This document shows positions 1,179 through 57,408 of a stretch of 64,000 nt of DNA, piece by piece. The translations under genes were made by a program, and so were the position numbers. The DNA is from a virus. The notes beneath the pieces are model-generated. The model did no database searches. It was not told the DNA's origin and worked only from the letters and a program-made list of their open reading frames with translations. Position 1 is the stretch's first letter. Every line of letters starts with the position of its first letter. The stretch covers positions 1 to 64,000 of the IMG/VR virus record IMGVR_UViG_3300026116_000003. One strand, 5' to 3'.

Positions 1179-1648
1179 CAGTCAGTATGGCGGCGCACTT
1201 TGCGTTGCGTCATCTGCTCGACTGCTTCCCGGCCGCGCTCGGAAACTTTGGGGCTGGAGAAGTAGCCCATTCCGTGCAGCTCGACCAGTAGAGTCAAAGT
1301 CCGCTTCTTCGTCTCCAGCGCCCAGACCACTGCCTGACTCAAGTCGGATTGATAGCGAGCTTCGCGGACCTTCTTAGAAGCAGCCTTGAAAGTTTCCCGA
1401 GTCTCGATAGCTGCCTTGACTGCTGCTTCGGTAATCTTTTCGATACCGTAGACTTCCGGGTTGACCCGAATCTTCTTAGCCAGCTCGGCTTCGACTACAT
1501 CCAGCTCTGCTTCCGCTTCCGCCACGTCCCGCTTAGCGTCGGCTGCCTGGTGGGCATACTTGAGATACTGAGACGGCAGCCGAATGCATTCCCGGTCCAG
1601 ATTATGCTCGTCAATCTGGACCACTGACTCCGTATTGTTTTCGCTCAT
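1178..1648 (-). CDS. helical protein, possible UvsY-like recombination mediator
   Basis: 156 aa, almost entirely helical, with heptad-like Ala/Glu/Lys runs (AADAKRDVAEAEAELDVVEAE) and a C-terminal segment VELHGMGYFSSP. Its size, the Tyr-rich LPSQYLKYA start and its place beside an SSB recall T4 UvsY, which loads recombinase onto SSB-coated DNA; this is structural resemblance only. I chose the ATG at 1648 (MSENNTES) over the in-frame start at 1687, because a GATAAT box lies 6 nt upstream of it and the longer form would run into the clamp-loader gene. Confidence 0.45.
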   Translation of the reverse strand: MSENNTESVVQIDEHNLDRECIRLPSQYLKYAHQAADAKRDVAEAEAELDVVEAELAKKIRVNPEVYGIEKITEAAVKAAIETRETFKAASKKVREARYQSDLSQAVVWALETKKRTLTLLVELHGMGYFSSPKVSERGREAVEQMTQRKVRRHTD

Positions 1649-1654
1649 AGTTGT

Positions 1655-1660
1655 ATTATC
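1655..1660 (-). promoter_or_regulatory. -10 box GATAAT placed for a leaderless start
   Basis: GATAAT lies 6 nt before the ATG at 1648 and overlaps the TAG stop of the clamp-loader gene. The spacing matches that of the promoter array further right, so transcription would begin at or next to the start codon. No CTAAAGTAT box is visible upstream. Confidence 0.45.
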
Positions 1661-2583
1661 TACTTCATACAGACTACTTCGTAACAAGCCGCCGCCAGTC
1701 CAGCCTGTTTCGAGTCATAAAAGTTCTTGGAAAAGATATCAATAATCTTGAAAGCTCGCGGAGCCAATTGCTGGTTCGCCAGCAAGACCGAGCGAGCGTA
1801 GCCCAACACGAGGTAGCGAAGTCCTTCGGGGTCTTCGTCTTTCAAGTCTTTGAGCAGCGTCGCTACCGGAGCCCATTGCGCCCGGGGGTTGATTAGTCCA
1901 CGAGCCAAGTCTATCGCCGCCGACTTGTTGACAGAGCTCGCTTGCACTCCGCGCATCTGCTCGGCGTCTCCTTCCAGACCGGCTACCTGCCCCAATACTA
2001 CCAGCGCTTTGCGAGCAGAGCCATCTGCGCACTCGACAATCCCCTGGATGACGTCTTCCGATACCGCAAGCTTCTCCGCGGCTACTACGTCTTCCAGGAG
2101 CCCTTTCAGTAATTTGTCCGACAGAGCAACCAGGCGGACTTCTGTGCAGCGCGTATGGATAGCTTTGATAAGCTTGGAAGAGTCCGTAGTCAGCAGCATA
2201 AAATAAACGTGGCTCGGGGTATCTTCCAGCATTTTAAGGACTGCGTTCTGCGCGTCGTTAGTCAGCTTGTGCGCTTCGTCGAGCACCCAAATCCGGCAAG
2301 CGCCTTCCAACGGGCTCAAGTTCATCCGCCGGCGGATTATCCGAATAGATTCCACTCCGCGGTCGTCTCCAGAATTCACTTCGGTAAAGTCAGTGCCGCC
2401 ACAGTCCAGAGACCGGCGCAAGATTCTAGCGATAGTTGTCTTGCCACAGCCAGAAGGTCCAGTCAGCAAGAGTGCGTGTGGAAGCCCCTTGTCTAATTGC
2501 TTCTGCAGCGAAGCGATAGCTACTTCCTGCCCGATTACTTTGTCCAGTGTTCGCGGACGGTATTTCTTGTAAAGTTCTGCCAT
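1660..2583 (-). CDS. AAA+ clamp loader (RFC/gp44/DnaX-like) subunit
   Basis: 307 aa from the ATG at 2583 (MAELYKKYRPRTLDKVIGQE). The opening YRP..L..VIGQ is the signature of clamp-loader ATPases. Walker A is GPSGCGKT (residues 42-49), Walker B is WVLDEAH, sensor 1 is LTTD, and the SRC arginine-finger motif appears as TRC (HTRCTE). A helical lid and collar domain follow. It should load the beta-type clamp at 5742-6791 in an ATP-dependent way for the phage polymerase. The ATG at 2583 is favoured over a TTG 90 nt upstream because the family begins at this point. No separate small subunit was seen. Confidence 0.9.
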   Translation of the reverse strand: MAELYKKYRPRTLDKVIGQEVAIASLQKQLDKGLPHALLLTGPSGCGKTTIARILRRSLDCGGTDFTEVNSGDDRGVESIRIIRRRMNLSPLEGACRIWVLDEAHKLTNDAQNAVLKMLEDTPSHVYFMLLTTDSSKLIKAIHTRCTEVRLVALSDKLLKGLLEDVVAAEKLAVSEDVIQGIVECADGSARKALVVLGQVAGLEGDAEQMRGVQASSVNKSAAIDLARGLINPRAQWAPVATLLKDLKDEDPEGLRYLVLGYARSVLLANQQLAPRAFKIIDIFSKNFYDSKQAGLAAACYEVVCMK

Positions 2584-2685
2584 ATTAAAATTGACGCTGG
2601 TTGCCTGGGAAATTTGCTTCGCCAGTTTATCGCATTGCAGCAAATAGCCCGCCACTGGGTTAGGTTTAAGCAACCAGCATATTTA

Positions 2686-4143
2686 TTATCTTTTTCTTGG
2701 CTTCGTATATCCTCTTACGATTCCTTTTTCGCCAGCTCCATCGTTGTGATTGGGACTAACACCCTCTTCTTTCTGATACCAGTTACCGCCGGGCGGAGCT
2801 ACCGCATATTCAATCTGCGGCGGCACAACGAGGAAAGGATAGTGGCGCGGTAGTCCGACCGTTACTACGTGGTCAACAATCCGCATGTATTTTTTCAACT
2901 CGGTTGTCTTTACGTCTCCGACCAAGCTATCGTGAATTTGACCGACTACCATACTTTCCATCCGCTCTTTGCGGAGGATACGGTTGACTTGAATTAGAGT
3001 CCACAGCAAGCAATGGAACGCCGAGCCTTGAATCGGGTAGTTGCAGACCTGCTTCCGGTTGAATACTCCAGGCACGCGGAAGCCGGTCAGCAAATCAAAG
3101 TAACCATTTTCCAAATACTTTTTATACCAGACCCGGCGCCACTCTCCATACTTTTGAAAGCGTCGATTCCAAAAGTCATTCTCCACGTCCCGAACGTGCT
3201 TTTCAAACGTGCCATCCAGCGGGTCAATCTCAGGGTCGCACGCGCCGAGCGTTACAATTCCTTTATACTTCAAGTGCTCGTAAAGCGATACTCCAGCCGG
3301 AGTCGTCAGCTTCCCGCGCCCAATCCATTCCCAAAGCGAGCGAGCGCAGCTCACGTAGAAGTCTCCGTAGAACTGGGGGAACACGAACATATTCTTGGCT
3401 CCGTAGCGAGCTTCTTTGCTGACTTCGGATGGCTTGAGCTTGTAGAGTTGAGCCGCCATATCCCGATGCATATCCTTCCCCGGCGTAGAAATATACTCGA
3501 TGAACACCGGGTCCTTGTGATAAGCTGCGGACAAGGCAACTTCGATTCCTTTAAAGTCATTCTCGACTAACTGATGCCCCTCCGACGCAATAAAGAGCGA
3601 GCGGATAATTTTGCTAATCTCCTCGTCGCGGACGGGCATATTCTGAAAGTTGGGAGAGTCGGAGCTAGAGCGGTGCGAGCGAGCGAGATGGAGGTTGTAG
3701 CTCGGATGGATACGGTCTCCGACAATCTCCCGCTCGATGCCTTTGATAAACGTCCCCAGCGCTTTCTCATACTTGAGGAACTTCGCCATCTTTTTTACAA
3801 AGGGGTGGTCGACTTTCTGGAGAGCTTCCGCGTCGGTCGATGGCGCTCCGCTCTCCGTCTCCGTATGGACTTTGTAGCCCATAATCTCAAAGAGCACGGT
3901 CCCGAGCTGACTGTGCGAAGTAAAGTTAGCTTTAGTTCCGAATCGCTTGCGCCACATCGCCCACACTTTATCCTGCTCCATCTCCGCTTTGAGCGTGCGG
4001 ATTCTTTCGGCCAGCTTCGCTTTCGTGCGCTCCAGCCGAGCTAAGTCAATCCGGATTCCATTCGCTTCGACGCGAGCCAGCTCAATCAGCCCGTCGTGGA
4101 ACAGCTGGTAGCCTTGCTGGCGAATGGCGTGAATCTTTTTCAT
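2686..4143 (-). CDS. family A DNA polymerase, polymerase domain only
   Basis: 485 aa. Motif A is DFKGIEVA (D196, E201), motif B runs from ARYGAK to FYG (R246, K250, Y259), the conserved NYPIQGSA block follows, and motif C is QIHDS (H404, D405). These are the palm and finger elements of the Pol I family. The polypeptide lacks a 3'-5' exonuclease domain; that activity is in the next gene upstream (4235-5416). The start at 4143 (MKKIHAIRQQ) overlaps the TGA of the 32-aa membrane peptide as ATGA; an in-frame start 15 nt earlier is less likely. The stop (TAA) overlaps a GATAAT box of the following gene. Confidence 0.92.
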   Translation of the reverse strand: MKKIHAIRQQGYQLFHDGLIELARVEANGIRIDLARLERTKAKLAERIRTLKAEMEQDKVWAMWRKRFGTKANFTSHSQLGTVLFEIMGYKVHTETESGAPSTDAEALQKVDHPFVKKMAKFLKYEKALGTFIKGIEREIVGDRIHPSYNLHLARSHRSSSDSPNFQNMPVRDEEISKIIRSLFIASEGHQLVENDFKGIEVALSAAYHKDPVFIEYISTPGKDMHRDMAAQLYKLKPSEVSKEARYGAKNMFVFPQFYGDFYVSCARSLWEWIGRGKLTTPAGVSLYEHLKYKGIVTLGACDPEIDPLDGTFEKHVRDVENDFWNRRFQKYGEWRRVWYKKYLENGYFDLLTGFRVPGVFNRKQVCNYPIQGSAFHCLLWTLIQVNRILRKERMESMVVGQIHDSLVGDVKTTELKKYMRIVDHVVTVGLPRHYPFLVVPPQIEYAVAPPGGNWYQKEEGVSPNHNDGAGEKGIVRGYTKPRKR

Positions 4144-4238
4144 TTTCGTCGCGTGCAAACCACAATCAAAATTACTAACAGAACGATAGATATCGACTGC
4201 TTGAACATGATATGCTCCAGCATCTCGTGGTCCGTCAT
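4140..4238 (-). CDS. 32-aa membrane peptide between the exonuclease and polymerase genes
   Basis: The frame reads MTDHEMLEHIMFKQ, then an uninterrupted hydrophobic run (SISIVLLVILIVVC), then TRRK and stop. It is locked between two DNA polymerase pieces by ATGA overlaps on both sides (start in the TGA of the UDG-exonuclease gene, stop in the ATG of the polymerase gene). A single membrane span with a basic C-terminus is the simplest reading. Alternatively it is a coupling ORF whose translation matters more than its product. Confidence 0.55.
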   Translation of the reverse strand: MTDHEMLEHIMFKQSISIVLLVILIVVCTRRK

Positions 4239-5416
4239 AAGCCCATATCTTTCATTTGCACCATCGCCAGTTTGTATTCTAGCCGAGCGTCCATGCCGTT
4301 GTAGAGCAGCAACGCCGGCGGATAAATTTCGTCAATCCGGTTGTAGGGACTACCCTTGACATTCGCTAAGTAGGGCTCAGTTGTCTCGTTGAAAGACGGG
4401 ACGCCGAGCCGGACCAGCGCCTGGAACTTGAGCGAGCAAATCCCCGGGCGATTGTCCAGGCAATGCGCCGCCAGCATCGTATCCCAGCCCCAGTTTGTTA
4501 CTCCGTGCCCGAACGTCTTCAACGTCCAGCGCTCTTCCATTTTCAAGTTGCTCGAAATCTTTTGGCTACGCTTCGACTGGAGCAGCAGCTTAGTAACCAG
4601 CGAAGTTTGAACAGTCCACAAGTAAGCAATCGTCCTCCGTCCGTTGGATAGAGCGCAAGAAATTATCTGGCCGTCCGGCCACTCTGGTTTGAGGCAAGTC
4701 GTTTCGTAGTCGACGGCCATCCAACCACCCACTTCTTCCATCTCTCTTATCGCGCGGCAAGCCGCTTCGTCCTCGAGCAAGCATTCAATCCCCTCTTCCC
4801 ACTTCGGCTGCCGCGGCGGAAGCTCGTCCAGCTCAAACGCGGCTTGCAGATGGTTGAGGAATAAACAATCCAGCAAAGCGTCTTTCATCCGTAGCAGGTA
4901 AGCCGGATGGTAAGTCGGGCAAATCCAGTGGCGCTCAACCGGCATCCGCCAGCCGGTCCAACGGTCGAGCGCTCCGATATCTCTCCAGTAACCCTCGAGC
5001 ACGCTAACCAGCGCCGAGCGCCCGAGCGTCAAGACAACTTGCGGCTCATACTTCCGGATAGCGTTGAGCAAGTTCGGCCGGCAGTAGGAGATTTGCTTGG
5101 CGTCTGGCGTGGCGTTTTTCGGCGGGCGGCAAATCAAAGCGTTAGTTGTCCAAGCGTCTCTATCCAAGTCCACTCCGATTCGCTTCAACGAAGAGCGAAG
5201 AAACAAACCAGACTTACCGACGAAGGGACGCCCTTGCTCGTCTTCTTCTACGCCCGGAGCTTCGCCGACAACCAAGACTCTCTTTGCGCCCTGACCATAC
5301 GGCTTAATCTTCGGACTCTCGCAAGTCTTGTAGAGTCCGCAAGCGCCACACTTCGGGACAAACCCGAATTCCGGCTTGTCTTTCTGGACTTTAGATGATT
5401 CGAAAAACCCGCGCAT
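4235..5416 (-). CDS. family 4-type uracil-DNA glycosylase fused to a 3'-5' exonuclease
   Basis: 393 aa with two domains. Residues 1 to about 195 match Fe-S uracil-DNA glycosylases: cysteines C23, C26/C32, C96 and C112 for a 4Fe-4S cluster, motif GEAPGVEEDEQGRPFVG, and the late YHPAYLLR motif. Residues from about 225 to the end match a DnaQ-like proofreading exonuclease: ExoI VDYET (D236, E238), ExoII SSNLKMEE with D312, and ExoIII YNGMD. Some phage Pol I enzymes carry UDG, exonuclease and polymerase domains in one chain; here the polymerase domain is a separate gene after a 32-aa peptide. The two products presumably associate to give a proofreading polymerase. Confidence 0.85.
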   Translation of the reverse strand: MRGFFESSKVQKDKPEFGFVPKCGACGLYKTCESPKIKPYGQGAKRVLVVGEAPGVEEDEQGRPFVGKSGLFLRSSLKRIGVDLDRDAWTTNALICRPPKNATPDAKQISYCRPNLLNAIRKYEPQVVLTLGRSALVSVLEGYWRDIGALDRWTGWRMPVERHWICPTYHPAYLLRMKDALLDCLFLNHLQAAFELDELPPRQPKWEEGIECLLEDEAACRAIREMEEVGGWMAVDYETTCLKPEWPDGQIISCALSNGRRTIAYLWTVQTSLVTKLLLQSKRSQKISSNLKMEERWTLKTFGHGVTNWGWDTMLAAHCLDNRPGICSLKFQALVRLGVPSFNETTEPYLANVKGSPYNRIDEIYPPALLLYNGMDARLEYKLAMVQMKDMGL

Positions 5417-5442
5417 TGCGCTATAGTATCTCTGGCCAGCGC

Positions 5443-5516
5443 TCCTATTCCGTCAGGATTGCACGATAGGACCGGTTTTTATTTGATTTGAGTGTCAACA
5501 TAGCGGCAACTTAGGG
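5443..5516 (-). promoter_or_regulatory. class-2 repeat element (promoter-like core plus hairpin) before the UDG-exonuclease gene
   Basis: In the minus direction it reads CCCTAAGTTGCCGCTATGTT then GACACTCAAA, followed by a stem TCCTAT/ATAGGA (5443-5448 with 5466-5471) whose loop holds AATCCTGACGG. The same layout recurs at 15019-15093 and 48584-48654, and the core alone at about 10201-10215. TATGTT at 5497-5502 could be a -10 box, with CCCTAA 8 nt upstream as in the class-1 promoters. The hairpin would then lie in the 5' leader of the gene starting at 5416. Confidence 0.5.
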
Positions 5517-5536
5517 TCATTCGCTAGGAACGAAAC

Positions 5537-5749
5537 CTAGTCTTTTGCGACTACCTGCAAAAGCCTTTGACCGTGAGCAACGACGCAACCGACTTTGTGG
5601 CGAATCTCGGGCGGAGTAGCAGCAAAAGCGTCGCAGTAGACGCAACGAAAACCCCGGCCCATCAACTCTCCGCTACGAGCCGGCTTGAGCGCCAAGTCTA
5701 CGAACTGCCCGACCAGCTGAACCATTTCCTTTTGAATTGCTTCAGTCAT
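5537..5749 (-). CDS. 70-aa putative zinc-binding protein
   Basis: The C-terminal half has a CVYCDAF pair followed by HKVGC and a second His (AHGQ), a plausible C2HC zinc site. The N-terminal half is one amphipathic helix (IQKEMVQLVGQFVDLALK). It starts inside the last 8 nt of the sliding clamp gene, so the two are translationally coupled. No family recognised. Confidence 0.55.
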   Translation of the reverse strand: MTEAIQKEMVQLVGQFVDLALKPARSGELMGRGFRCVYCDAFAATPPEIRHKVGCVVAHGQRLLQVVAKD

Positions 5750-6791
5750 TGTCTTTCTCTTCTCCCCTCTCCGGCTCTTCTTCCTCTTCCTGCGGCTTGC
5801 CCAAGACCGTGATGTATTCCCAATGCCCGCCGACGACTTTCAACTTCGTTTCTCCGATTACCGCGTCATCATAGTTCTCAGAAATATACTTGAGCAAGTC
5901 CGGAGCGATACAGAAGTCCAGCGCTGGTCCCTTGTAGTTGACCTTCTTCGATTCCTTATACCAGCCGGACAGCCCTTCTCCCCGAACGCGAATCACTCCA
6001 GTCGTCAACGATACCGATACCAGCGGGTCTCCGGACTTGTCGGCGGCGAAGATAGCCGCCCGGTCGGTCGCTTCCATCAGCCCTTTCGGGATAACGATAT
6101 CGTGACCGTCGACCTCGATAACTTTGTCCAGCGCGGGGTAGTCTTCGGTATAGCGACGGCAGGAGAAGATTAGCCCCGATTGACTCTTGAAATGAATCCA
6201 GCACTTGGTCATCGCCACTTCGTCCATCCCGAGCGATACGATATGGCGCAACGAAGTCCCGCGCACTAAGACCGAAGACTTGATACCGGTCTTTACTTTT
6301 ACCCGCATGATTTGCATGTTGTCGCACGCTTCCACATGCTCCGGATGAATGTGGATGCAAGTCAGAAGAAAGCGCGACTCGTCTGTACTAACGCAATGCT
6401 GGACTCGACTCACGGCTTCAGTAAACTCCTTGACAAGCGGGTGCCAATGCTTCGGAGTCTCGACTCTGTCAATCGGGAGAAATATCTCCGCGTCTTTCGT
6501 CACGCCGAACCGCTTTTTCTTGCCACGAAACTCCAGCTCTCCTTTCTCGTTTTCTTCCACCAGCAACTCGGGGTCAGTCAGCTTCCCCAAAATCGCCAGC
6601 AACGAAGCCGCCTGCACGGCGCCAGTCACTTTGATTCCGACTTTCATCCGGCAAGCCACTTCGTCGTTGAAAGTCATCACCATCCCGTCCTGGAAAGCGA
6701 AGCAACTCGATTGCTCCAGGAATTCTCGCGGAGACAAGCCAGCCTTGACCAGCTCCAAAACATTCAGAAACTCTTCTCGGTTGATTTTCAT
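5742..6791 (-). CDS. DNA polymerase sliding clamp (DnaN/beta-like)
   Basis: 349 aa, close to the bacterial beta clamp length (about 366). Clamp-like pattern elements include LLTCIHIHPEHVEACDN in the middle domain, and RAAIFAADKSG followed by VSLTTGVIRVRGEG in the third domain, as in beta clamps. The C-terminus is a Glu-rich tail (EEEEEPERGEEKDND). It would tether the polymerase to DNA and be loaded by the AAA+ subunit at 1660-2583. A GATAAT box lies 8 nt before the start and a strong hairpin terminator separates it from the gene upstream, so it has its own promoter. Confidence 0.8.
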   Translation of the reverse strand: MKINREEFLNVLELVKAGLSPREFLEQSSCFAFQDGMVMTFNDEVACRMKVGIKVTGAVQAASLLAILGKLTDPELLVEENEKGELEFRGKKKRFGVTKDAEIFLPIDRVETPKHWHPLVKEFTEAVSRVQHCVSTDESRFLLTCIHIHPEHVEACDNMQIMRVKVKTGIKSSVLVRGTSLRHIVSLGMDEVAMTKCWIHFKSQSGLIFSCRRYTEDYPALDKVIEVDGHDIVIPKGLMEATDRAAIFAADKSGDPLVSVSLTTGVIRVRGEGLSGWYKESKKVNYKGPALDFCIAPDLLKYISENYDDAVIGETKLKVVGGHWEYITVLGKPQEEEEEPERGEEKDND

Positions 6792-6799
6792 TCAATCGT

Positions 6800-6805
6800 A
6801 TTATC
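6800..6805 (-). promoter_or_regulatory. -10-like GATAAT before the clamp gene
   Basis: GATAAT 8 nt upstream of the clamp ATG, directly downstream of the terminator hairpin at 6817-6850. No convincing -35 box. Confidence 0.35.
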
Positions 6806-6816
6806 TCAAAGCAAAT

Positions 6817-6850
6817 GAAGAAAGCGTGCAGAGTATTGCACGCTTTCTTC
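6817..6850 (-). terminator. hairpin terminator after the 217-aa gene
   Basis: Perfect 14-bp stem (6817-6830 with 6837-6850) and a 6-nt loop, followed on the minus strand by ATTTGCTTTG. It sits between the stop at 6872 and the clamp promoter, so it should separate the two transcription units. The stem ends in AAGAAAG/CTTTCTT, so the U-rich side lies partly inside the stem. Confidence 0.7.
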
Positions 6851-6871
6851 CGAACTGGCGAGTCTTTACTT

Positions 6872-7525
6872 TTACTCTTTGGCCGCTTTGGCCAAGCGAT
6901 ACTCGTTCTTGCCATTCTCTTTGCGGACTTCCAGCAAACCGCTCTTGACCTGGTCGGCCAAGTTGCCGTTGATTTTGCCGGGAGGGACGCCAGACTCTTC
7001 TTCAATCTGAGCGATGGTTTTCCACGCTCGGGAAAAGGCCGTATTCGTCTGGGCGCGAATCGTCCCGAGCCGGCAGCCGTATTTGTCTTTCTCGACCGTC
7101 GACTTGCCGCCAGCTTTCTTTGCCTTGGCCGGCTTGCTCTTTTTGACTTTCCGCGCCGGAGTCTTCGCCAGAAGCTTCTTCAACTTCTCTTTGACGCTAG
7201 CAATGGAATCTTTCGCCCGAATCTTGATGTCCAGCTTGCGCTCTTCGATGAAAGCGCGAATAGCCGCCTTGTCCATCGAGTCGACATCAATCACTTCGTC
7301 AACTTCTTCCTCTTCGGCCGGAGCTTCGTCCGCCAGCTGGATATCGCCGTCGGCCGCAATCAACTCGTTCAACAGAGGAACGAATTGCGCTTTCACGTCG
7401 CTCTCGCTGACCTTCGTCGGCACCAGCTGGATTTTCTTGAGCAGCTTGGCGTCGTCCCAATCAGCGGCGCTCGGAAAGCCCAAATCGACCAACATAGCAA
7501 CCGCGTCATTTCTCTTGATTTTCAT
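6872..7525 (-). CDS. 217-aa protein with acidic linker and winged-helix-like C-terminus
   Basis: No family recognised. The N-terminal 70 residues are helical. An acidic stretch (APAEEEEVDEVIDVD) leads to a SAP-like helical pair (MDKAAIRAFIEERKLDIKI), then a Lys/Ala-rich basic linker, then about 60 residues resembling a winged helix (TIAQIEEESGVPPGKINGNL). The basic linker and wing suggest DNA binding. It sits between the helicase and clamp genes and has its own class-1 promoter, a 110-nt leader with a perfect hairpin, and an A-rich stretch before the ATG. Confidence 0.7.
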   Translation of the reverse strand: MKIKRNDAVAMLVDLGFPSAADWDDAKLLKKIQLVPTKVSESDVKAQFVPLLNELIAADGDIQLADEAPAEEEEVDEVIDVDSMDKAAIRAFIEERKLDIKIRAKDSIASVKEKLKKLLAKTPARKVKKSKPAKAKKAGGKSTVEKDKYGCRLGTIRAQTNTAFSRAWKTIAQIEEESGVPPGKINGNLADQVKSGLLEVRKENGKNEYRLAKAAKE

Positions 7526-7671: not shown

Positions 7672-9078
7672 TTACCACGTAGAAATCATTGCGGGGTTGA
7701 CGAGCGCCAGAGAGCCGGCGACAGTGACGCACTTCGTCTCGTAATAAACTCCTTCGCGAAGGAGAATCCAGTTCAAGCGAAATATCCCCAGCTGCTTTTC
7801 CTTCTCCGTTTGATTCAGCCCCACCATTCCAGTAACGTGAGAAAGCTTGCGCTTGTCTTCGCTGAAATTGCTCCGGCGCAAAAGGACGCCGTCGTATGAC
7901 GCCGCGTCCGATTGAGTAGCCGTCAGAACCAAGCAGTGGTAATCTTGCGACAAGCGACGCAAAGCTTTCCACGTCTCGTTCGTTTGGTGCCGGAAGTCTT
8001 GCCCCTTCAATCCAGCTTCCGGCGCTAGGATATCCGCGTAGTCAACCACCACGACGTCTGGATACCAACCCTCGTGGATTTTCGCATCCATACTGACGCG
8101 AATATCCGCGACGGTCGTGGTCGAATTCGAAGAGCACTCCAACTCCAGTAAAGAAGAAGTTGATGCAGTCAATTTCAGAATTGTCTCTTGAGCTAGACGA
8201 GCTTCGCTTTCTTTCAGTCGAGAATCGTAACTAGAAAACCGAAACTTCACTTTTGGTTTCCCATCAGGTCCGAGTTTGATTTTAACGGGGCGCGATACGT
8301 CGCCAGCTTCCAGCGGCCGGCGCGCAGCGCGAGCAATAAACCGCCGCATCATTTGGTTCTTGGACATATCCCCTACCGAAAAGAACATCGTCCGGCGCTT
8401 GGACTTCGCTGCGGCTCTCCACGCCACGTCAATCAACCAAAAAGATTTGCCGCGCTTCTCCGGCGCGAGGAAAGCGATAAACCCATCCCGGCAGAGATGC
8501 TGGCCGAAGAATTCCCCGATATCCCCAGGGTAAAGAACCAGAGACTGGTCTTCATTTATCACCAGCGCTTCTCTCCACGCTTCAAAGTCAGTAAAGACGG
8601 AAACTCCAGCGCGAGCGTCAAACGATACGGGGTTGAATTGCGCCATCTTCTCTTTGACCGTATCCAAATCTTTCCGCAACAAACTTTCCTCCAGAGAGTC
8701 TTTCAAGCGAGTATACCGAATCTCCGAGAAATAGCGGGACGCAGAATCAACTAAGTAATCCGCGTTGAGCTCCTTCGCCAAAGCTTTGTAATCGTCGCTC
8801 AGAGAGCCCAAATATTTTTCAATCAAATCCACTTCCGGAGAGTCTCCGTGCTTATCCGCAAAGCCGCTAAACAGAAGTCGGATATTTTCTCGGGGCGCTT
8901 TTCCATACTCGTTGTAGAAGTCCCGGCACCAAACGTAGATTTGATTGGACCACTTCGACCGAAACGGCTTGGCTTCCTGCTTGAGCCCAGAAACTACTTT
9001 GCCCAATACTCGGGAGTTGACGATTAGCGCAGTCAAGATGGACCGTTCTTCGTCGCTCTGGTATTTCTGGACTTTCAT
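7672..9078 (-). CDS. DnaB-family replicative helicase
   Basis: 468 aa from the ATG at 9078, which overlaps the TGA of the initiator gene as ATGA. The N-terminal 150 residues are a helical DnaB-N-like domain. The RecA-type motor has a degenerate Walker A (APEKRGKS instead of GxxxxGKS), a TMFFSVGDMS strand where DnaB has its E-S-L-M-S block, and Walker B VVVVDYADIL. The later segment NETWKALRRLSQDYHCLVLTATQ fits helicase motifs. It should unwind the fork and be loaded by the protein of the upstream initiator gene. The primase gene is distant (20.4 kb). Confidence 0.85.
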   Translation of the reverse strand: MKVQKYQSDEERSILTALIVNSRVLGKVVSGLKQEAKPFRSKWSNQIYVWCRDFYNEYGKAPRENIRLLFSGFADKHGDSPEVDLIEKYLGSLSDDYKALAKELNADYLVDSASRYFSEIRYTRLKDSLEESLLRKDLDTVKEKMAQFNPVSFDARAGVSVFTDFEAWREALVINEDQSLVLYPGDIGEFFGQHLCRDGFIAFLAPEKRGKSFWLIDVAWRAAAKSKRRTMFFSVGDMSKNQMMRRFIARAARRPLEAGDVSRPVKIKLGPDGKPKVKFRFSSYDSRLKESEARLAQETILKLTASTSSLLELECSSNSTTTVADIRVSMDAKIHEGWYPDVVVVDYADILAPEAGLKGQDFRHQTNETWKALRRLSQDYHCLVLTATQSDAASYDGVLLRRSNFSEDKRKLSHVTGMVGLNQTEKEKQLGIFRLNWILLREGVYYETKCVTVAGSLALVNPAMISTW

Positions 9079-9923
9079 CTCCACGTCTTCGGATTATTAA
9101 CATCAAAATCTTTTATCTCTTTCCCGTCCACAACAGAGTCGTATTCTGGAACTTTGTAATCTATTTGCTCGGAAGACCCCTTCTTCATTTGCATCTCTAT
9201 CTCCACAAACTTGTCGCAAAAAGAACTAAATGTATTGCACCGCTTGGAATACTCTTCTTTCCAATGCTCGAAATACCAACGCAAGACTTTCCGAACTTGT
9301 TGCTTGTCGCCATCTAGTTGCTTGAGCAAAAGCCTGCACCGAACAATCCATTGAGTTATTGTCTTTTCTGACCAGCCGGAACGAGTCGAGCCTTGTTTGC
9401 CCGCATGCAGTCGATTCTTTATATTCCAATTGGCATACTCTTCTACTATTTTTGCCGCGACGCTTTTCTTGGTTTGCAGACTCTCACCTTCCTCCGGAAA
9501 AATACAACCGCCGCCTCGCGGCGTATGTTTGTATTCTTTGTAAGAGTCTCTACGTAGTAGAGACGATTTGTTTTGCGCTTTTGTCGATACTAGTTTTGCG
9601 CTTTTGTCGAAACTAGTTTTACAGATTCTAAAATGGAGGATTGCTGGAAGTCCTTTTAGTTTCTCTTCAACTAAACCAGATAGTCTCAATACTTTCCGAG
9701 CAGTAGCTTGCTCTCTCGTAGATAGCCCAGTCTCTTCTTCCCACTCTATAGCCGATTTGTAAATCCAACCTTCGGAGTCTTTTGTTCGCTTAGTCCAGTA
9801 GACGAGTTGCGAGAGCATAAGCGCAGCGTTTACACTTCCAGTCCATTCTACGAAGATTCGATGAAACGCAATTGGTCGGTCGAGCAATTCAAGCGGACTG
9901 GTTTCGGTTATTTCATACTGCAT
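9075..9923 (-). CDS. replication initiator / helicase-loader-like protein with internal iterons
   Basis: 282 aa. The first 100 residues are a winged-helix domain of the kind found in phage replication initiators (LMLSQLVYWTKRTKDSEGWI, then EEETGLSTREQATARKVL). A basic low-complexity middle (KSAKLVSTKAQNKSS) follows, then a helical C-terminal domain with WSEKTITQWIVRCRLLLKQL that may contact the helicase. Its stop overlaps the helicase ATG, the classic initiator-helicase pairing. The middle is encoded by two 23-bp direct repeats next to a palindrome, as in phages whose origin lies inside the initiator gene. A canonical promoter and a folded leader lie upstream. Confidence 0.65.
   Translation of the reverse strand: MQYEITETSPLELLDRPIAFHRIFVEWTGSVNAALMLSQLVYWTKRTKDSEGWIYKSAIEWEEETGLSTREQATARKVLRLSGLVEEKLKGLPAILHFRICKTSFDKSAKLVSTKAQNKSSLLRRDSYKEYKHTPRGGGCIFPEEGESLQTKKSVAAKIVEEYANWNIKNRLHAGKQGSTRSGWSEKTITQWIVRCRLLLKQLDGDKQQVRKVLRWYFEHWKEEYSKRCNTFSSFCDKFVEIEMQMKKGSSEQIDYKVPEYDSVVDGKEIKDFDVNNPKTWR
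9546..9564. repeat. perfect inverted repeat beside the iterons
   Basis: GTCTCTAC and GTAGAGAC (9546-9553, 9557-9564) separated by GTA. It lies 5 bp from the first iteron inside the initiator gene. Confidence 0.7.
9570..9616. repeat. two tandem 23-bp iterons, candidate replication origin
   Basis: Copies at 9570-9592 and 9593-9615, each reading GTTTTGCGCTTTTGTCGA then an ACTA end, differ at one base (9588/9611); a third copy begins with GTTTT at 9616. The 23-bp period is not a multiple of three, so the repeats encode different peptides in successive frames, which suggests selection on DNA rather than on protein. With the adjacent palindrome they resemble the iteron-type origin inside lambda gene O. 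Confidence 0.5.
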
Positions 9924-52163: not shown

Positions 52164-52391
52164 CTATTCCATTTTCCTCATCTTTTTGATGGCACTACGC
52201 GGAATGGTGAGCTGGTCCATATAGCGCCGGCGCTGGCTAACGCTAGTGGAAATAGTTACCGAATGTTTGCCTTCGTAGACGAGCAATCCCACAGAGAGGA
52301 TATAGTGACGGCCGTCTCGTTGCGGGCTATCCCAGCCAGGGCTGGTAAACGAGTCCTCCCACTTAATCTGAACTACTTTAAGCTTTTTCAC
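52164..52391 (-). CDS. 75-aa protein of unknown function
   Basis: MKKLKVVQIKWEDSFTSPGW, then GRHYILSVGLLVYEGKHSVT and a basic end (QRRRYMDQLTIPRSAIKKMR). Likely a small beta barrel. Overlaps the glycosyltransferase gene by 14 nt; last gene before the protease. Confidence 0.6.
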   Translation of the reverse strand: MKKLKVVQIKWEDSFTSPGWDSPQRDGRHYILSVGLLVYEGKHSVTISTSVSQRRRYMDQLTIPRSAIKKMRKME

Positions 52392-53193
52392 GCTTCTGTA
52401 TGTAGTCGAGCAATACTCGACGGTTCGCGTCCATGTGCGTGCGGTAAGCGTTAGCGACGGAACGAGCGTGCCAGCGGTGCAGCAAGCAGAGCCACCTGTT
52501 GCGCTGAAATAATTCCCAAGCTTTGACTCGGCTAATCTCGTCCCGGCAGCGCCACGTCACGTTCGTAATATCCAACCGGCCGGATAGCGGACAAGCTCCA
52601 CGCTGATAGCGCTCCAGCATATAGATTTGCTGGTAGTCTTCCCAGCCGTAGCCGGCAAAGCGTTCATCACACCCGCCCAAGTCCAGATACTCCTGGCGCC
52701 GGCAGATAAAGTTAGTCCCGGCCGGGCGCAAGTAGGAGTTGGCCGAGTAAAAGCCGGGGTTCTCCATAATCTCCGTATAGTTGCGCTCGGTAAGGTCTTT
52801 TGTATCCAGCAGAGCAGAAGCTTTGCGGTTCAAGTAAAGCATTCCGCCATTGAACCACTCCCGCGGAGCCGCCCAAACGAGAATCGGCAAGAGCTCTTTG
52901 AAGTAACGGGGATTGGGAAGCGTGTCTATATCGAGCTTCATTATCCACTCCGACGTGGTCATCTTCGCTCCTTCGTTGTGGTAATAGCCGATGGAACGTC
53001 CCTCTTTGAAATGGATTCCGATAACGTCAACAGTCCACAAATCCGTAAAGTCTAGCTCTTTGCGCGGAGCTACTTCACCAATAAAGAAAATGAGGTGGTT
53101 TACTTCGGGGTGAGCGGCAGCCCGGATAGCTTTGAGCCATACTTTCAGCGCGTCCGGCCGGTTCCAGACGGGAGTAATAGTTGTGAGGGTCAC
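52378..53193 (-). CDS. GT2/GT7-C-type glycosyltransferase
   Basis: 271 aa, MTLTTITPVWNRPDALKVWL (GT-A opening), IMKLDIDTLPNPRYF with a DxD, and GGCDERFAGYGWEDYQ, the Glyco_transf_7C acceptor motif. It transfers a sugar from a nucleotide donor. First (most downstream) member of the glycan island; ATGA-coupled to the MazG-like gene. Confidence 0.85.
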   Translation of the reverse strand: MTLTTITPVWNRPDALKVWLKAIRAAAHPEVNHLIFFIGEVAPRKELDFTDLWTVDVIGIHFKEGRSIGYYHNEGAKMTTSEWIMKLDIDTLPNPRYFKELLPILVWAAPREWFNGGMLYLNRKASALLDTKDLTERNYTEIMENPGFYSANSYLRPAGTNFICRRQEYLDLGGCDERFAGYGWEDYQQIYMLERYQRGACPLSGRLDITNVTWRCRDEISRVKAWELFQRNRWLCLLHRWHARSVANAYRTHMDANRRVLLDYIQKREKA

Positions 53194-53834
53194 GCCCGGT
53201 GGTGGTGCTTGGAATCGGGCCGTTTCATACGAGAAGGAGACTCCGCTACTTTTTGAATCTCTAGCTTGTGCTTAAGGCAATCGGGGCAATCTACTTCGTC
53301 CCAATACGCTGACCACAAGTGGCCAGACGGCCAGACTTTTGGAACGCCTTGGATTCCGCAAGGAGCTCGTCCGGCTCGCAAGTAATGAACGACAAGAACA
53401 GGGTTCCTAGCGTGCGCGGGTTGCGTTGCGTCTACTCTTGCCGCGTCCCACTCTGTTTCTTTTACTAAAGCACCAACGTCAGCCAGTGCTTTGTCAGCCC
53501 GCTCCGCTGCCTTCTTGTCGGAGTATTTCAAATCGTTGTAGCGTTTGGTGAGCTTGAGGATGTTAGCGTCCAGCGTCTCTTGCCGCGAGATATCCATCGC
53601 TTGCCGGAGCCCTTCCATATAGAATTCCAAATCGCCGAGCTCTTCGATAACGTTAGCGCGGTCGAGCGGCTTGCGGTAGATAACCGGGCGCTTAATCGCG
53701 TCGAACAGTTCTCCGGCTTCGCTGCAAATACAAGACGACATGTGCCAAACATTGCAGTCCCAAGCGGTCAGCTCGTTCAAGATATCTTCTCCAGGCTTGG
53801 TCAGCTTCGCTACTAATTCGGGGTGAGTAATCAT
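53190..53834 (-). CDS. MazG-like nucleotide pyrophosphohydrolase with zinc tail
   Basis: 214 aa. CICSEAGELFDAIKR and VIEELGDLEFYMEGLRQAMD are the EAGE / ExxD metal-binding motifs of MazG-type all-alpha NTP pyrophosphatases. The C-terminal 80 residues include VDCPDCLKHKLE and His-rich ends (KHHHRA), possibly a zinc site. Phage MazG proteins adjust nucleotide or alarmone pools. Confidence 0.75.
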   Translation of the reverse strand: MITHPELVAKLTKPGEDILNELTAWDCNVWHMSSCICSEAGELFDAIKRPVIYRKPLDRANVIEELGDLEFYMEGLRQAMDISRQETLDANILKLTKRYNDLKYSDKKAAERADKALADVGALVKETEWDAARVDATQPAHARNPVLVVHYLRAGRAPCGIQGVPKVWPSGHLWSAYWDEVDCPDCLKHKLEIQKVAESPSRMKRPDSKHHHRA

Positions 53835-54088
53835 TGCGAGTTGTGGTTTTTAGTTATCCGTTTAATTTCCCTGTCAATATAGTATCTGGCCTTCTGCAAG
53901 TCCTGCAGCGCGTCCCCTTTCTCTCCAGCCCTCCAGATATATTTCATCGCATTGCCTAAGCAAAAGTTCATATGCTCGACCACTTCAATGCATTCAATCC
54001 CCGAAGGAGAGACGTTATAGTGCTTGGCGCGATTGATTACGTCGAATCCGAGAGGAACTGGGTCCACAACTTTTAATTTGGTTTTCAT
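53831..54088 (-). CDS. DUF3310 protein
   Basis: 85 aa: VINRAKHYNVSPSGIECIEV, then FCLGNAMKYIWRAGEKGDAL, DLQKARYYIDREIKR. The HY..GIEC, GNA.KYI.RAG.KG, DL.KA.WY pattern is diagnostic of DUF3310 (nucleotide-kinase-associated family of unknown role), common in phages. Confidence 0.85.
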   Translation of the reverse strand: MKTKLKVVDPVPLGFDVINRAKHYNVSPSGIECIEVVEHMNFCLGNAMKYIWRAGEKGDALQDLQKARYYIDREIKRITKNHNSQ

Positions 54089-54291
54089 AGTTCAGCTTCG
54101 CGCAGCGCCGCGAGCAGCGCGGTTGATTTTGCCGCTCCTTCTCCTTGCGGAAGAGACTTGACATAATCGAACCACCGGACTGACACCAGCCGCGGCCGGA
54201 ACTGCAAAATAAATTCGTTCAATACGAAGCCGTCCTTCTCTGGGTCTATCCGGTGAGCCACTGGAATCTTAATCATCTGCCCCTCGGTCAT
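54085..54291 (-). CDS. 68-aa protein of unknown function
   Basis: MTEGQMIKIPVAHRIDPEKD, then LNEFILQFRPRLVSVRWFDY, ending STALLAALREAEL. Overlaps both neighbours by 4 nt. No family recognised. Confidence 0.55.
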   Translation of the reverse strand: MTEGQMIKIPVAHRIDPEKDGFVLNEFILQFRPRLVSVRWFDYVKSLPQGEGAAKSTALLAALREAEL

Positions 54292-54917
54292 ACCCGCAAG
54301 TAAAAAGCATCGCCCCAGCCGCTGCCGGTCATCTTGATTTCCTTCCGACTAAAGCCCTTCTCCCAAAAGAATGCATCGATATCCTTTAGCAACGGACACC
54401 CTATGTAGAGCTCTTTCACATTTACTTCAATATAAGCCGAATCAAATTCCCAAAACAAGTCGCCCATTCCTTTTAGCGCCAGCAGCTCGGCTCCTTGCAA
54501 GTCGATGTTGAGCAACCATCCGGGCCCTACTTCCAGCTTGTTTTGCCGGAGCAAAGTATCAACCCGAATCGTCGCCATCCGAATCGTCTTTACGTAGCGA
54601 ACCGTAGGGTGCGCTTGCGCGTGCGTCCCTAGCTCGAAGAACGAAGAGCTTTGCCCATCATTAGAAGCCACATGGAAGTCTACTTGTTGATTGTCTACGT
54701 CGCTTAGGCACGCTAATAGCGCAACGGAACCGCGTATAGGAGCGATTTTCTGCTTCAGGACGTCAAATACTTGCGGAAGAGCTTCCACCCAGATAACCCG
54801 CTCGATTCCTGCAGCTGCATAGGCTGGAGCTTCCTGTCCCTCATTTGCTCCTAAGTGGAGAACACCGGGCGGGCGGAGCGAATACTTTTTGCACAAATAG
54901 TCAAACGGTATCAGCAT
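54288..54917 (-). CDS. FkbM-family methyltransferase
   Basis: 209 aa. SAM motif I GVLHLGANEGQEAPAYAAAG, then FHVASNDGQSSSFFEL, TIRVDTLL and LNIDLQGAELLALKGM (the DLQGAE.L.L.G block of FkbM). FkbM enzymes O-methylate sugars or other hydroxyls, commonly in glycan loci. Confidence 0.88.
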   Translation of the reverse strand: MLIPFDYLCKKYSLRPPGVLHLGANEGQEAPAYAAAGIERVIWVEALPQVFDVLKQKIAPIRGSVALLACLSDVDNQQVDFHVASNDGQSSSFFELGTHAQAHPTVRYVKTIRMATIRVDTLLRQNKLEVGPGWLLNIDLQGAELLALKGMGDLFWEFDSAYIEVNVKELYIGCPLLKDIDAFFWEKGFSRKEIKMTGSGWGDAFYLRV

Positions 54918-55461
54918 AAGAATGAGCGTAGAACCACGCGCCGGCGTCCTCCGGCTTGTCTTCCGGCAAAGTGTTTACCTCGAGAAATCTTTCCTTAGCA
55001 AAGTCCAGCACTGCTTGATGAACTCCGTAGCTCGGGTTCAAGTAGTCGTGGAAAGCCATTACTCCTTTCTCAACCAGCTTCGGATACCACGCTCGAATAT
55101 CGTTCATCACGCCTTCGTAAGAATGGTCAGCGTCGATGTAAACGAGCCGCAGGCAGCGAGCTGGAATCCGCATCGCCACTTGCACTGAATCCCCTTTAAG
55201 AAAAGTGACCGCTGTCCGTACCGATTTCATTTTCTGCTTGGCTTGAGCGAAGTTGCTATCGTGCCAGGATTGCGGACAAGACGCATCTCCTTTCTGCGTC
55301 GGCACGCAAGCCCAACGGTCGACGCAGTAAAGCGTGGAGAAAATAATCGGCCAGTCGAGCATCTCCCGGCTAAAGTTTCCCTCTGCTACTCCAATCTCAG
55401 CGATACCGCCGGGGACGTTCTTGACTAGCTGCCACAAGTCACGTCGATATTGAATACTCAT
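54901..55461 (-). CDS. class I SAM methyltransferase (Methyltransf_24 type)
   Basis: 186 aa. GGIAEIGVAEGNFSREMLDW is motif I, VYIDADHSYEGVMNDIRAWY the downstream acidic/His block, then GVMAFHDYLNPSYGV. This is the Methyltransf_24 pattern, often acting on sugars (for example OleY-like O-methylation). Overlaps the FkbM gene by 17 nt. Confidence 0.85.
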   Translation of the reverse strand: MSIQYRRDLWQLVKNVPGGIAEIGVAEGNFSREMLDWPIIFSTLYCVDRWACVPTQKGDASCPQSWHDSNFAQAKQKMKSVRTAVTFLKGDSVQVAMRIPARCLRLVYIDADHSYEGVMNDIRAWYPKLVEKGVMAFHDYLNPSYGVHQAVLDFAKERFLEVNTLPEDKPEDAGAWFYAHSYADTV

Positions 55462-56402
55462 AAACCAGTCCGGTTGCCAAAAAGGTAATTCAAATAGTCA
55501 TAGCCATCGCCACCTGAAGTATATTGACCTTCACGGATAATCTTCAACCCCTTTACTGGAAGCTCCAACTCGTAGAGGAGCAAAGAAAATTGAGTCTCCG
55601 GAGCGAAAACATAGTCATTCTTTTGGGCAGTATTGTAAGTATTGTGCTTCCGGTTCGTAATCAAGCCCATCCGATTAAGATTAGGGAACAAGCGCTCGGC
55701 TACTTCCCGCCCAGAGAACCAACAAAAGTCATCAGCCCATTCCATCTCGTCAAATGAGATATTGCCGCGCACGCTCCCGCAAACAAATAGGGCATTCAAG
55801 TCGTCTATGTAGCGCCGGATATCCCAAGACCAGTCTACCACGAAGTCCGGCCGCGCTCGCATAACGTAAGCATAACGAGCGCCCCGCTGGACTTCGTGCC
55901 GCTCCATGGCTTCGTAGCACGTCCGCACACGGTGATACTGGTCAACTACGTAGCCAATCCCGGCGTCTTCCGGCAGCACGTCGTTCCCACTACACGGCGG
56001 CGGCAGTCTTCGTAATCTATTCTCCGCCTGATAGAGCTTGATTGCTTCGGCCATCTTCCGCCGGTTAAGCGCTACAGTCAGTTGGTCAGACAAGCTCTGG
56101 TCTTCGACGAACAATATCTGCTTGAGCACTTCCGGCCCGAGCAACTCGGCAATCTCCATTACTTCCGAACTGGTAACCAGACGCTCCTCTCGCACGATAG
56201 TCCTGCCTTTCTCGTGCCAGGTTAAGCGGTTGGCTGAAGAGACAACCAGCGGAGTAGACGGAGCCTTGCGAAGCATATTTTTCCACGACGTCACAATAAA
56301 GACGTCCGCTTCACTCGGCCGGGCTAAGTTGTCGCGCAAAGAGGGGAGCGAATTACGCCAACTCCCCAGCCGGCCGGATAATAAGATAGCCGTCTGGTTC
56401 AC
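55458..56402 (-). CDS. glycosyltransferase-like protein (DUF7796 type)
   Basis: 314 aa: MNQTAILLSGRLGSWRNSLP, EADVFIVTSW, RYAYVMRARPDFVVDWSWD (RxRPD), NDYVFAPETQFSLLLYELEL. The xxSGxxR ... DVFIxT ... RxRPD pattern occurs in polysaccharide-locus proteins of the DUF7796 type thought to be glycosyltransferases. Exact donor unknown. Confidence 0.65.
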   Translation of the reverse strand: MNQTAILLSGRLGSWRNSLPSLRDNLARPSEADVFIVTSWKNMLRKAPSTPLVVSSANRLTWHEKGRTIVREERLVTSSEVMEIAELLGPEVLKQILFVEDQSLSDQLTVALNRRKMAEAIKLYQAENRLRRLPPPCSGNDVLPEDAGIGYVVDQYHRVRTCYEAMERHEVQRGARYAYVMRARPDFVVDWSWDIRRYIDDLNALFVCGSVRGNISFDEMEWADDFCWFSGREVAERLFPNLNRMGLITNRKHNTYNTAQKNDYVFAPETQFSLLLYELELPVKGLKIIREGQYTSGGDGYDYLNYLFGNRTGL

Positions 56403-56644
56403 GCTCCCCGCTCGGCCATCGCTTTGTCCAGCTGCGCCACTTTTTCTGGAGTCAGCATGGCAATTACTTTTCGCGCATGCTCCGGCAGTTCCCGAAGGTG
56501 TTTGTCGCCGGGCAGTTTTAATACCCGCGATACGTCGAGCGTCAGCATCGTCATCTCGTTGATTTGGTTTTGCAGCTCGGCTAACTGCCGGCCGGCGTCC
56601 GGTTTGAGACTAGGACTAGGGTTTGGACTAGGACTTGGATTCAT
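56399..56644 (-). CDS. 81-aa protein with a Pro/Ser N-terminus
   Basis: From ATG 56644 (MNPSPSPNPSPSLKPDAGRQ), then helical (LAELQNQINEMTMLTLDVSR). The leader is A-rich (AGCAAACCAAAACAAAGGAA). No family recognised; may be a structural linker protein. Confidence 0.5.
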   Translation of the reverse strand: MNPSPSPNPSPSLKPDAGRQLAELQNQINEMTMLTLDVSRVLKLPGDKHLRELPEHARKVIAMLTPEKVAQLDKAMAERGA

Positions 56645-57408
56645 AATTTTCCTTTGTTTTGGTTTGCTTCGTGCCATTCAAATTTCGTCGGGTCAAAGTC
56701 TTCCATACGTTGCGCGAACCAGTATGGGCCGAGCTTGCTGAAGCCAGAGAAGATAGTCATCCCCTTGCCGATATCCGACTTGTTGTCTCGTTGAATAACG
56801 CTGCCGGGGACGAAAGCGAAAGTTTGCAACCGCGGTTGGATTTGAATCATTGCCCAGTCAATTCCCATACTCAAGTCCAGCCACTCGTCCAGCAGGTGCA
56901 ATACTCGCTCAATACTCCGGTCGCGCACGATGTAAGCGTAAGTGCAAAAAGCGCCGAACGTCCGCAAGATATGCGGGTCCTCGGTTGTCTCCGCGTCGCG
57001 CCCCAAGTCTTGCTTGTGCCAATACGGAGGGTTGACGTGGAACGTGGCGCCGAGCCACAGGATATCCCACCAATTGCACTTCGCTAAGTACTGCTCCATA
57101 TAATGCAACCGCAAGTGGAAGTCTTTGCAGAATATCAAATCGTCTTCCATTACCCAAGCGTGCTTCTTTTGCTTGAGTGCTTCCTGCATGATTTTGACTT
57201 GAGAAAACCAGCACCCTATCGCTCCAGGAGTCCGGTTCTGCATAACTTCCACTCGCTTGGGGTTGCCCTTGTATTCGCTCGGGAGCATCCCGCGCACGCG
57301 AGTAGCGGGGATATGAGCTTCGTTGCAAGCTTTCGTCATCAAGTCCAGCCGGTCCCAACGGCTATCGAGGTTGACGAAGCGGATACAACTTTCTTCAATT
57401 AAGTTCAT
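56641..57408 (-). CDS. GT25-family glycosyltransferase
   Basis: 255 aa. IRFVNLDSRWDRLDLMTKAC, then TPGAIGCWFSQVKIMQEALK, HAWVMEDDLIFCKDF: the GAIGC..S....W ... EDD signature of GT25 (LPS biosynthesis). Adds a hexose to lipooligosaccharide-type or protein-linked glycans. ATGA-coupled to the methyltransferase upstream. Confidence 0.88.
   Translation of the reverse strand: MNLIEESCIRFVNLDSRWDRLDLMTKACNEAHIPATRVRGMLPSEYKGNPKRVEVMQNRTPGAIGCWFSQVKIMQEALKQKKHAWVMEDDLIFCKDFHLRLHYMEQYLAKCNWWDILWLGATFHVNPPYWHKQDLGRDAETTEDPHILRTFGAFCTYAYIVRDRSIERVLHLLDEWLDLSMGIDWAMIQIQPRLQTFAFVPGSVIQRDNKSDIGKGMTIFSGFSKLGPYWFAQRMEDFDPTKFEWHEANQNKGKL

Follow-up and report, generated by a model that had tools for sequence, protein, structure and literature searches.

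Separate polymerase and UDG-exonuclease genes in a large uncultured virus group: a probable two-subunit family-A DNA polymerase

The textbook family-A DNA polymerase is a single chain that includes its own proofreading activity. In the bacterial Pol III core, formed by alpha and epsilon, proofreading resides in a separate subunit, and this core operates together with a clamp and a clamp loader. In Pseudomonas phage PaBG, the product gp205 unites a uracil-DNA glycosylase (UDG), an exonuclease and a polymerase on one chain (PMC7412058), and every annotated phage polymerase with a UDG domain that was retrieved for comparison is a single chain. In the T4-like Aeromonas phages 25 and 44RR, the halves of a split polymerase, 43A and 43B, co-purify with activity (PMC2988022). 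Moreover, PolA of the OM43 phages MEP401 and MEP402 is spread over two ORFs that flank a small ORF of unknown function, as in most of that group (PMC10580990), and phage MIJ3 carries a PolB in two parts with an intein at the break (PMC6892783).

The stretch of DNA analysed here (the window, 64,000 nucleotides) corresponds to positions 1 to 64,000 of a 74-kb IMG/VR virus record. This record includes tail, portal, head, helicase and primase genes, which marks the source as a tailed virus, probably a bacteriophage, that brings its own replisome. Glycosyltransferases, an FkbM methyltransferase and a MazG-domain protein are found among the virion genes (window 52378-57408).

Organization and domains of the window locus

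The polymerase locus and the replication genes around it comprise the following features.

7672-9084, minus strand: DnaB-like replicative helicase of the same replication block (phrog_19, 8.4e-24)
6791-5742, minus strand: sliding clamp (DNA polymerase processivity factor), upstream of the UDG-exonuclease gene (phrog_947, 2.9e-27)
5749-5537, minus strand: small ORF between the clamp and UDG-exonuclease genes
5416-4235, minus strand: UDG-exonuclease subunit, 393 aa (Pfam, AF2 model, catalytic residues, dN/dS)
4238-4140, minus strand: 32-codon ORF with one hydrophobic stretch between the polymerase halves, overlapping both neighbours
4143-2686, minus strand: family-A DNA polymerase subunit, 485 aa, with motifs A, B and C and without an exonuclease domain (Pfam DNA_pol_A, 1.7e-52; phrog_17)
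2580-1660, minus strand: clamp loader subunit, downstream of the polymerase (phrog_5846, 2.5e-61; Pfam DNA_pol3_delta2, 1.6e-23)

The UDG-exonuclease (UDG-exo), the 32-codon ORF and the polymerase occupy three different frames joined by ATGA overlaps, the ATG of the peptide (4238-4236) overlapping the TGA of UDG-exo (4237-4235), and the ATG of the polymerase (4143-4141) overlapping the TGA of the peptide (4142-4140). These ORFs, with their coordinates, frames and both overlaps, had been described in an earlier reading of the sequence alone (the sequence-only reading) and proved exact when the window was read again. A clear ribosome-binding site is absent ahead of the window polymerase, which, together with the ATGA overlaps, is consistent with coupled translation.

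The UDG-exo chain is composed of an N-terminal family-4 UDG (approximately residues 20-195) followed by a DEDD 3'-5' exonuclease (approximately residues 205-390). Pfam recognizes the UDG at 2.3e-25 and places DNA_pol_A_exo1 just under its cut-off (19.9 vs 23.6 bits), and the exonuclease fold is clear in the AF2 model of the protein (mean pLDDT 92.8). The top structural match of this model by E-value (Foldseek) is the family-A polymerase of phiLo; other matches are the family-4 UDGs of Thermotoga, Thermus and Sulfolobus, with the Klenow exonuclease lower down, and the best solved sequence matches of the UDG part are the enzymes of Thermotoga maritima and Sulfolobus tokodaii. A UDG of this family was recognized by four Fe–S cysteines (C23, C26, C96 and C112), a motif A GEAPG (residues 51-55) and a motif B starting with HP (HPAYLLR, 170-176), and a PolA-type DEDD exonuclease by D-x-E in ExoI (D236/E238), N-x3-(D/E) and D in ExoII (N290/E294 and D312), and Y-x3-D in ExoIII (Y372/D376). 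For a family-A polymerase, motifs A, B and C with the catalytic Asp residues and the R/K of motif B were sought, and these are found as D196, R246, K250 and H404-D405, which are kept in 52-53 of 53 relatives.

All the UDG, ExoI-III and Pol A-B-C motifs reported in the sequence-only reading are thus present, and they are also conserved across 53 ingroup rows, in which the four Fe–S cysteines and the catalytic residues of both exonuclease and polymerase hardly vary. The motif-B histidine of the UDG is replaced in about 10 of these 53 rows, so that some members of the clade may no longer have glycosylase activity. With dN/dS values of 0.09-0.12 for UDG-exo and 0.07-0.08 for the polymerase, both genes are intact and under purifying selection. 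Motif B of the polymerase (window 3364-3408, residues 246-260) reads RYGAKNMFVFPQFYG, in which K-N-x-FVFPQFYG is nearly invariant across the clade and the V occupies, by position, what we take to be the place of F762 in E. coli Pol I. At the C-terminus of UDG-exo, in turn, a Q-x-x-x-hydrophobic motif is nearly universal in the clade (Q in 52 of 53) and absent in all four single-chain outgroups. This motif sits at a helix end in the model, and only 20 of the 53 C-termini fit the clamp-binding pattern Q..[LIVM][hydrophobic]; the conserved end may contact the polymerase or the clamp.

The split among related viruses

IMG/VR was searched with the polymerase, which returned 76 relatives, and with a UDG-exo profile, which returned at least 545 on contigs partly shared with the first scan. 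Removal of near copies and edge fragments from the first scan, and addition of the window and one locus from the second, gave a set of 54 non-redundant loci with both parts present, and UDG-exo and polymerase are separate genes in 53 of them. The two genes touch or overlap in 23 of the 54 loci, a single type (L034, with its 97% twin L036) has one fused frame, and the rest, including the window, hold an insert between the genes, which in L054 amounts to a few bases only. One locus (L007) combines the split with a broken polymerase frame, perhaps through an error in that contig, and polymerase loci that lack UDG-exo all end near a contig edge. Seventy-nine loci were kept from the second scan, namely 72 split, one fused (from the same virus as L034/L036) and six without a polymerase in reach, which places the split in 72 of 73 informative loci. 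Two of these six have a polymerase approximately 4.2 and 4.7 kb downstream of UDG-exo, distances taken from coordinates, and the remaining four records are short fragments.

The order of the cassette is also conserved, running from the sliding clamp through UDG-exo, cargo and polymerase to the clamp loader, with the clamp upstream of UDG-exo in 46 non-redundant loci and the loader downstream of the polymerase in 53. A separate proofreading gene thus adjoins the clamp and loader genes, and all three domains share one ORF only in L034/L036 within the clade, not in the window. The split is a stable design, not a broken gene. In this respect, the sequence-only reading was right that UDG-exo-pol is genuinely divided into two genes and that no sequencing error is involved, as both an identical contig (L001) and the conserved split in relatives attest; the UDG stays on the exonuclease chain, so that the glycosylase does travel with the exonuclease, and the proposed check of gene order in relatives found the same order in many related viruses.

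Other records show different arrangements. Weizmannia phage Youna2 (L082, 3468-6737) also has a broken family-A polymerase, but at a different point, with a 673-aa protein comprising UDG-exo and part of the polymerase, a separate 188-aa polymerase piece and an ORF between them. The polymerase frames of L065 (4953-7601) and L076 (3231-5831) are well over 485 aa with an interrupted match, a pattern suggestive of an in-frame insertion, perhaps an intein. A genome-collection scan matched only one contig (L099), which is binned with a Thermoplasmata archaeon MAG and appears to be the same contig as L023.

The model of the fused protein L034 superposes on the exonuclease and polymerase of Klenow as one body (Z 30.6, 530 residues, 2.9 A), and the Klenow-like fold of the polymerase was recognized through this fused homologue. 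In the L034 model, residues 364-388 form the last helix of the exonuclease and residues 391-413 the first of the polymerase, and the break falls between the two. The split is located at the exonuclease–polymerase domain boundary, the Klenow fragment linker, and each half is a complete domain set. In the concatenated tree, the split loci group together with fused L034 inside (SH-aLRT 100 for its group of 16); separate UDG-exo and polymerase trees recover the same group, and midpoint rooting agrees on the position of L034 inside the split clade. Few UDG rows are included in A2, the alignment that combines the fused protein with the two separate halves. The nested position of L034 points to a single ancient split followed by one re-fusion. 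Alternatively, L034 may retain the primitive form, since a single split clade without L034 has p 0.205 in the AU test, and the argument for re-fusion would then be weakened.

The polymerase gene of the window (2686-4143) is 89% identical to that of L005 (4998-6455) between flanks of 96-97% identity, and its synonymous divergence in this pair is approximately 3-4 times that of UDG-exo. Recombination has thus probably replaced the polymerase gene independently of UDG-exo, a kind of exchange open to genes for single subunits. Exchange of the polymerase alone in near relatives would also mean that any interface between polymerase and UDG-exo tolerates replacement, which counts against a two-subunit enzyme.

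Junction cargo and rival explanations

The inserts between UDG-exo and polymerase are tightly packed ORFs, mostly overlapping both neighbours, with contents that include MazG pyrophosphohydrolases, CsrA, DUF4326, an intein-containing ThyX, HNH endonuclease and CxxC proteins. In the two farthest pairs, the intervening ORFs look like ribonucleotide reductase, ThyX, PurE and thymidylate synthase, as judged by inspection and not by family search. Inserts of at least 90 nt are present at 18 of 46 clamp/UDG-exo, 29 of 53 UDG-exo/polymerase and 32 of 53 polymerase/loader boundaries. Since all three cassette boundaries take inserts, the UDG-exo/polymerase junction is simply one more boundary between genes in a conserved cassette.

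Individual inserts at this junction comprise a ThyX with an HNH-bearing intein (L067, 3290-4858; Pfam Intein_splicing and HNH), viral genes for CsrA, a global post-transcriptional regulator (L059, 4319-4495; L062, 4809-4994), and a different hydrophobic ORF in L071. The cargo proteins of L027 (3855-4403) and L050 (4456-5007), of 182-183 aa, are possibly small clamp-like proteins; the L027 cargo matches phrog_3007, a family that also matches the window clamp weakly.

Outside the window, the 32-codon peptide was found only in contig L001, which is 100% identical and represents the same virus, and it has no family match in Pfam or PHROG. An open frame of this length is nothing unusual, being retained in 14% of base shuffles, but hydrophobicity equal to that of the peptide is reached in only 0.07% of the open shuffles. 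The ORF is probably coding and, from its sequence, probably specifies a small membrane protein that is not a polymerase part. The sequence-only reading had treated this membrane peptide as part of the arrangement, a view that does not survive comparison, given that L002-L005, with UDG-exo 97-98% identical, have an unrelated 70-aa CxxC ORF in its place, other loci hold other genes, and the polymerase and UDG-exo genes abut or overlap in the 23 loci mentioned above. The window peptide is lineage-specific cargo unrelated to the polymerase.

These data also bear on how the split should be explained. That the split is an artefact of sequencing or assembly, or a sign of a polymerase in decay, is barely conceivable: nothing in the window points to it, and the broken frame of L007 may be a contig error, but L001 is identical to the window over 7.1 kb, relatives have the same split and dN/dS is approximately 0.1 in both halves. 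A sequencing frameshift was rejected on the identical contig and the conserved split. It is very unlikely that a homing endonuclease split the gene and left the peptide as an insertion remnant, despite the precedent of T4-like 43A/43B (PMC2988022) and the HNH endonuclease between the halves in L009 and L012, because most inserts are not endonucleases, the peptide lacks a family match, and L010, a close relative of L009, has no insert. No homing endonuclease was detected at the window break with Pfam or PHROG, HNH being confined to L009 and L012 among the inserts scanned, and a homing site special to the junction was rejected since both other boundaries take inserts too. Homing may account for the first split event, but not for the present peptide.

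A shade less probable again is the production of a single protein after all, through programmed frameshifting, a self-splicing intron or protein trans-splicing. In many loci the open polymerase frame reaches back beyond its start codon into the end of UDG-exo, as this explanation would have it, but both possible frame relations are used at adjacent junctions, slippery heptamers are rare and not conserved, and the inserts hold unrelated genes; a programmed frameshift was rejected on the first two of these grounds. A group I/II intron was likewise rejected, with no Rfam match in window 1500-7000 or in 13 loci, and so was a split intein, as Pfam finds no intein splicing domain on either half and both halves stop at the domain boundary. 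The independence of the two enzymes, with a polymerase devoid of proofreading and UDG-exo acting as a free repair nuclease and glycosylase that shares only the operon, has more in its favour and is nonetheless unlikely. The genes can lie 4.2-4.7 kb apart with other genes between them, and the polymerase is exchanged alone in near relatives; however, both co-occur wherever the sequence of the locus suffices, a fused form whose model has the Klenow domain arrangement lies inside the clade, and the exact domain set of the single-chain phage polymerases is retained.

A probable two-subunit polymerase and its known counterparts

The locus quite probably specifies a replicative polymerase of family A in two subunits, one for synthesis and the other, a docking UDG-exo protein, for proofreading and uracil excision. 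This reading is based on intact domains, purifying selection, the clade-wide split, gene order and a Klenow-like fused relative, and beyond them we infer docking, activity, translational coupling and a clamp that holds the assembly. The polymerase subunit would extend DNA, and the UDG-exo subunit would provide 3'-5' proofreading and carry the family-4 uracil-DNA glycosylase, both being made from one replication operon, shared with the sliding clamp and clamp loader, by overlapping genes that are probably translationally coupled. The subunits would very probably dock like the domains of Klenow, the primer end moving from polymerase to exonuclease in the docked pair, with the glycosylase beside them removing uracil and the clamp holding the assembly together. 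Docking is likely because of the fused relative and the co-purifying 43A/43B halves, and physical association of polymerase and UDG-exo is likely, given the fused form in L034/L036 and the conserved co-occurrence. More tentatively, a widespread virus group could possess a Pol III-like replisome built from family-A parts, in which UDG-exo, held to the polymerase and perhaps to the clamp via its C-terminal Q-x-x-x-hydrophobic motif, would check mismatches and uracil together.

The single-chain phage polymerases of PaBG (gp205), phiLo (PDB 9qhs), Lysinibacillus phage LysYB1 and MW202455 contain the same three domains in the same order, although in one ORF instead of the two genes of the window, and no clamp or loader resembling those of the window was found in approximately 8 kb around the single-chain genes. 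The 43A/43B system likewise spreads a replicative phage polymerase over two genes with intervening sequence, but it belongs to family B and has an endonuclease or untranslated spacer, whereas the window polymerase is of family A and is split at a domain boundary, a split that persists through a large clade with mixed cargo. MEP401 and MEP402 share with it a split family-A phage polymerase with a small ORF between the parts; however, their break lies inside the polymerase domain, the exonuclease stays on part of the polymerase, no UDG is reported and an intron is suspected (PMC10580990). MIJ3 differs in having a family-B polymerase and an intein, a domain that was not found on the window halves. 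The Pol III core probably resembles the window system in its separate proofreading subunit and clamp-dependent replisome, and differs in combining a family-C polymerase with DnaQ where the window has a family-A polymerase with a PolA-type exonuclease fused to a UDG. In organisation, the window system would thus parallel the alpha/epsilon pair of Pol III without belonging to that family.

In the open-access papers searched, there was no earlier report of the present clade, nor of any family-A polymerase divided at the editing/synthesis boundary throughout hundreds of viral contigs and accompanied by a clamp and loader. A large uncultured virus group with a separate editing subunit would provide a natural system to address why replicative polymerases part synthesis from editing, the parts of a naturally split polymerase could be mixed, and the fused relative L034 makes the comparison of split and fused forms directly testable. 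Split phage polymerases and single-chain UDG-exo-pol enzymes are already known, and what appears new, as judged from the papers searched, is a clade-wide split at the domain boundary.
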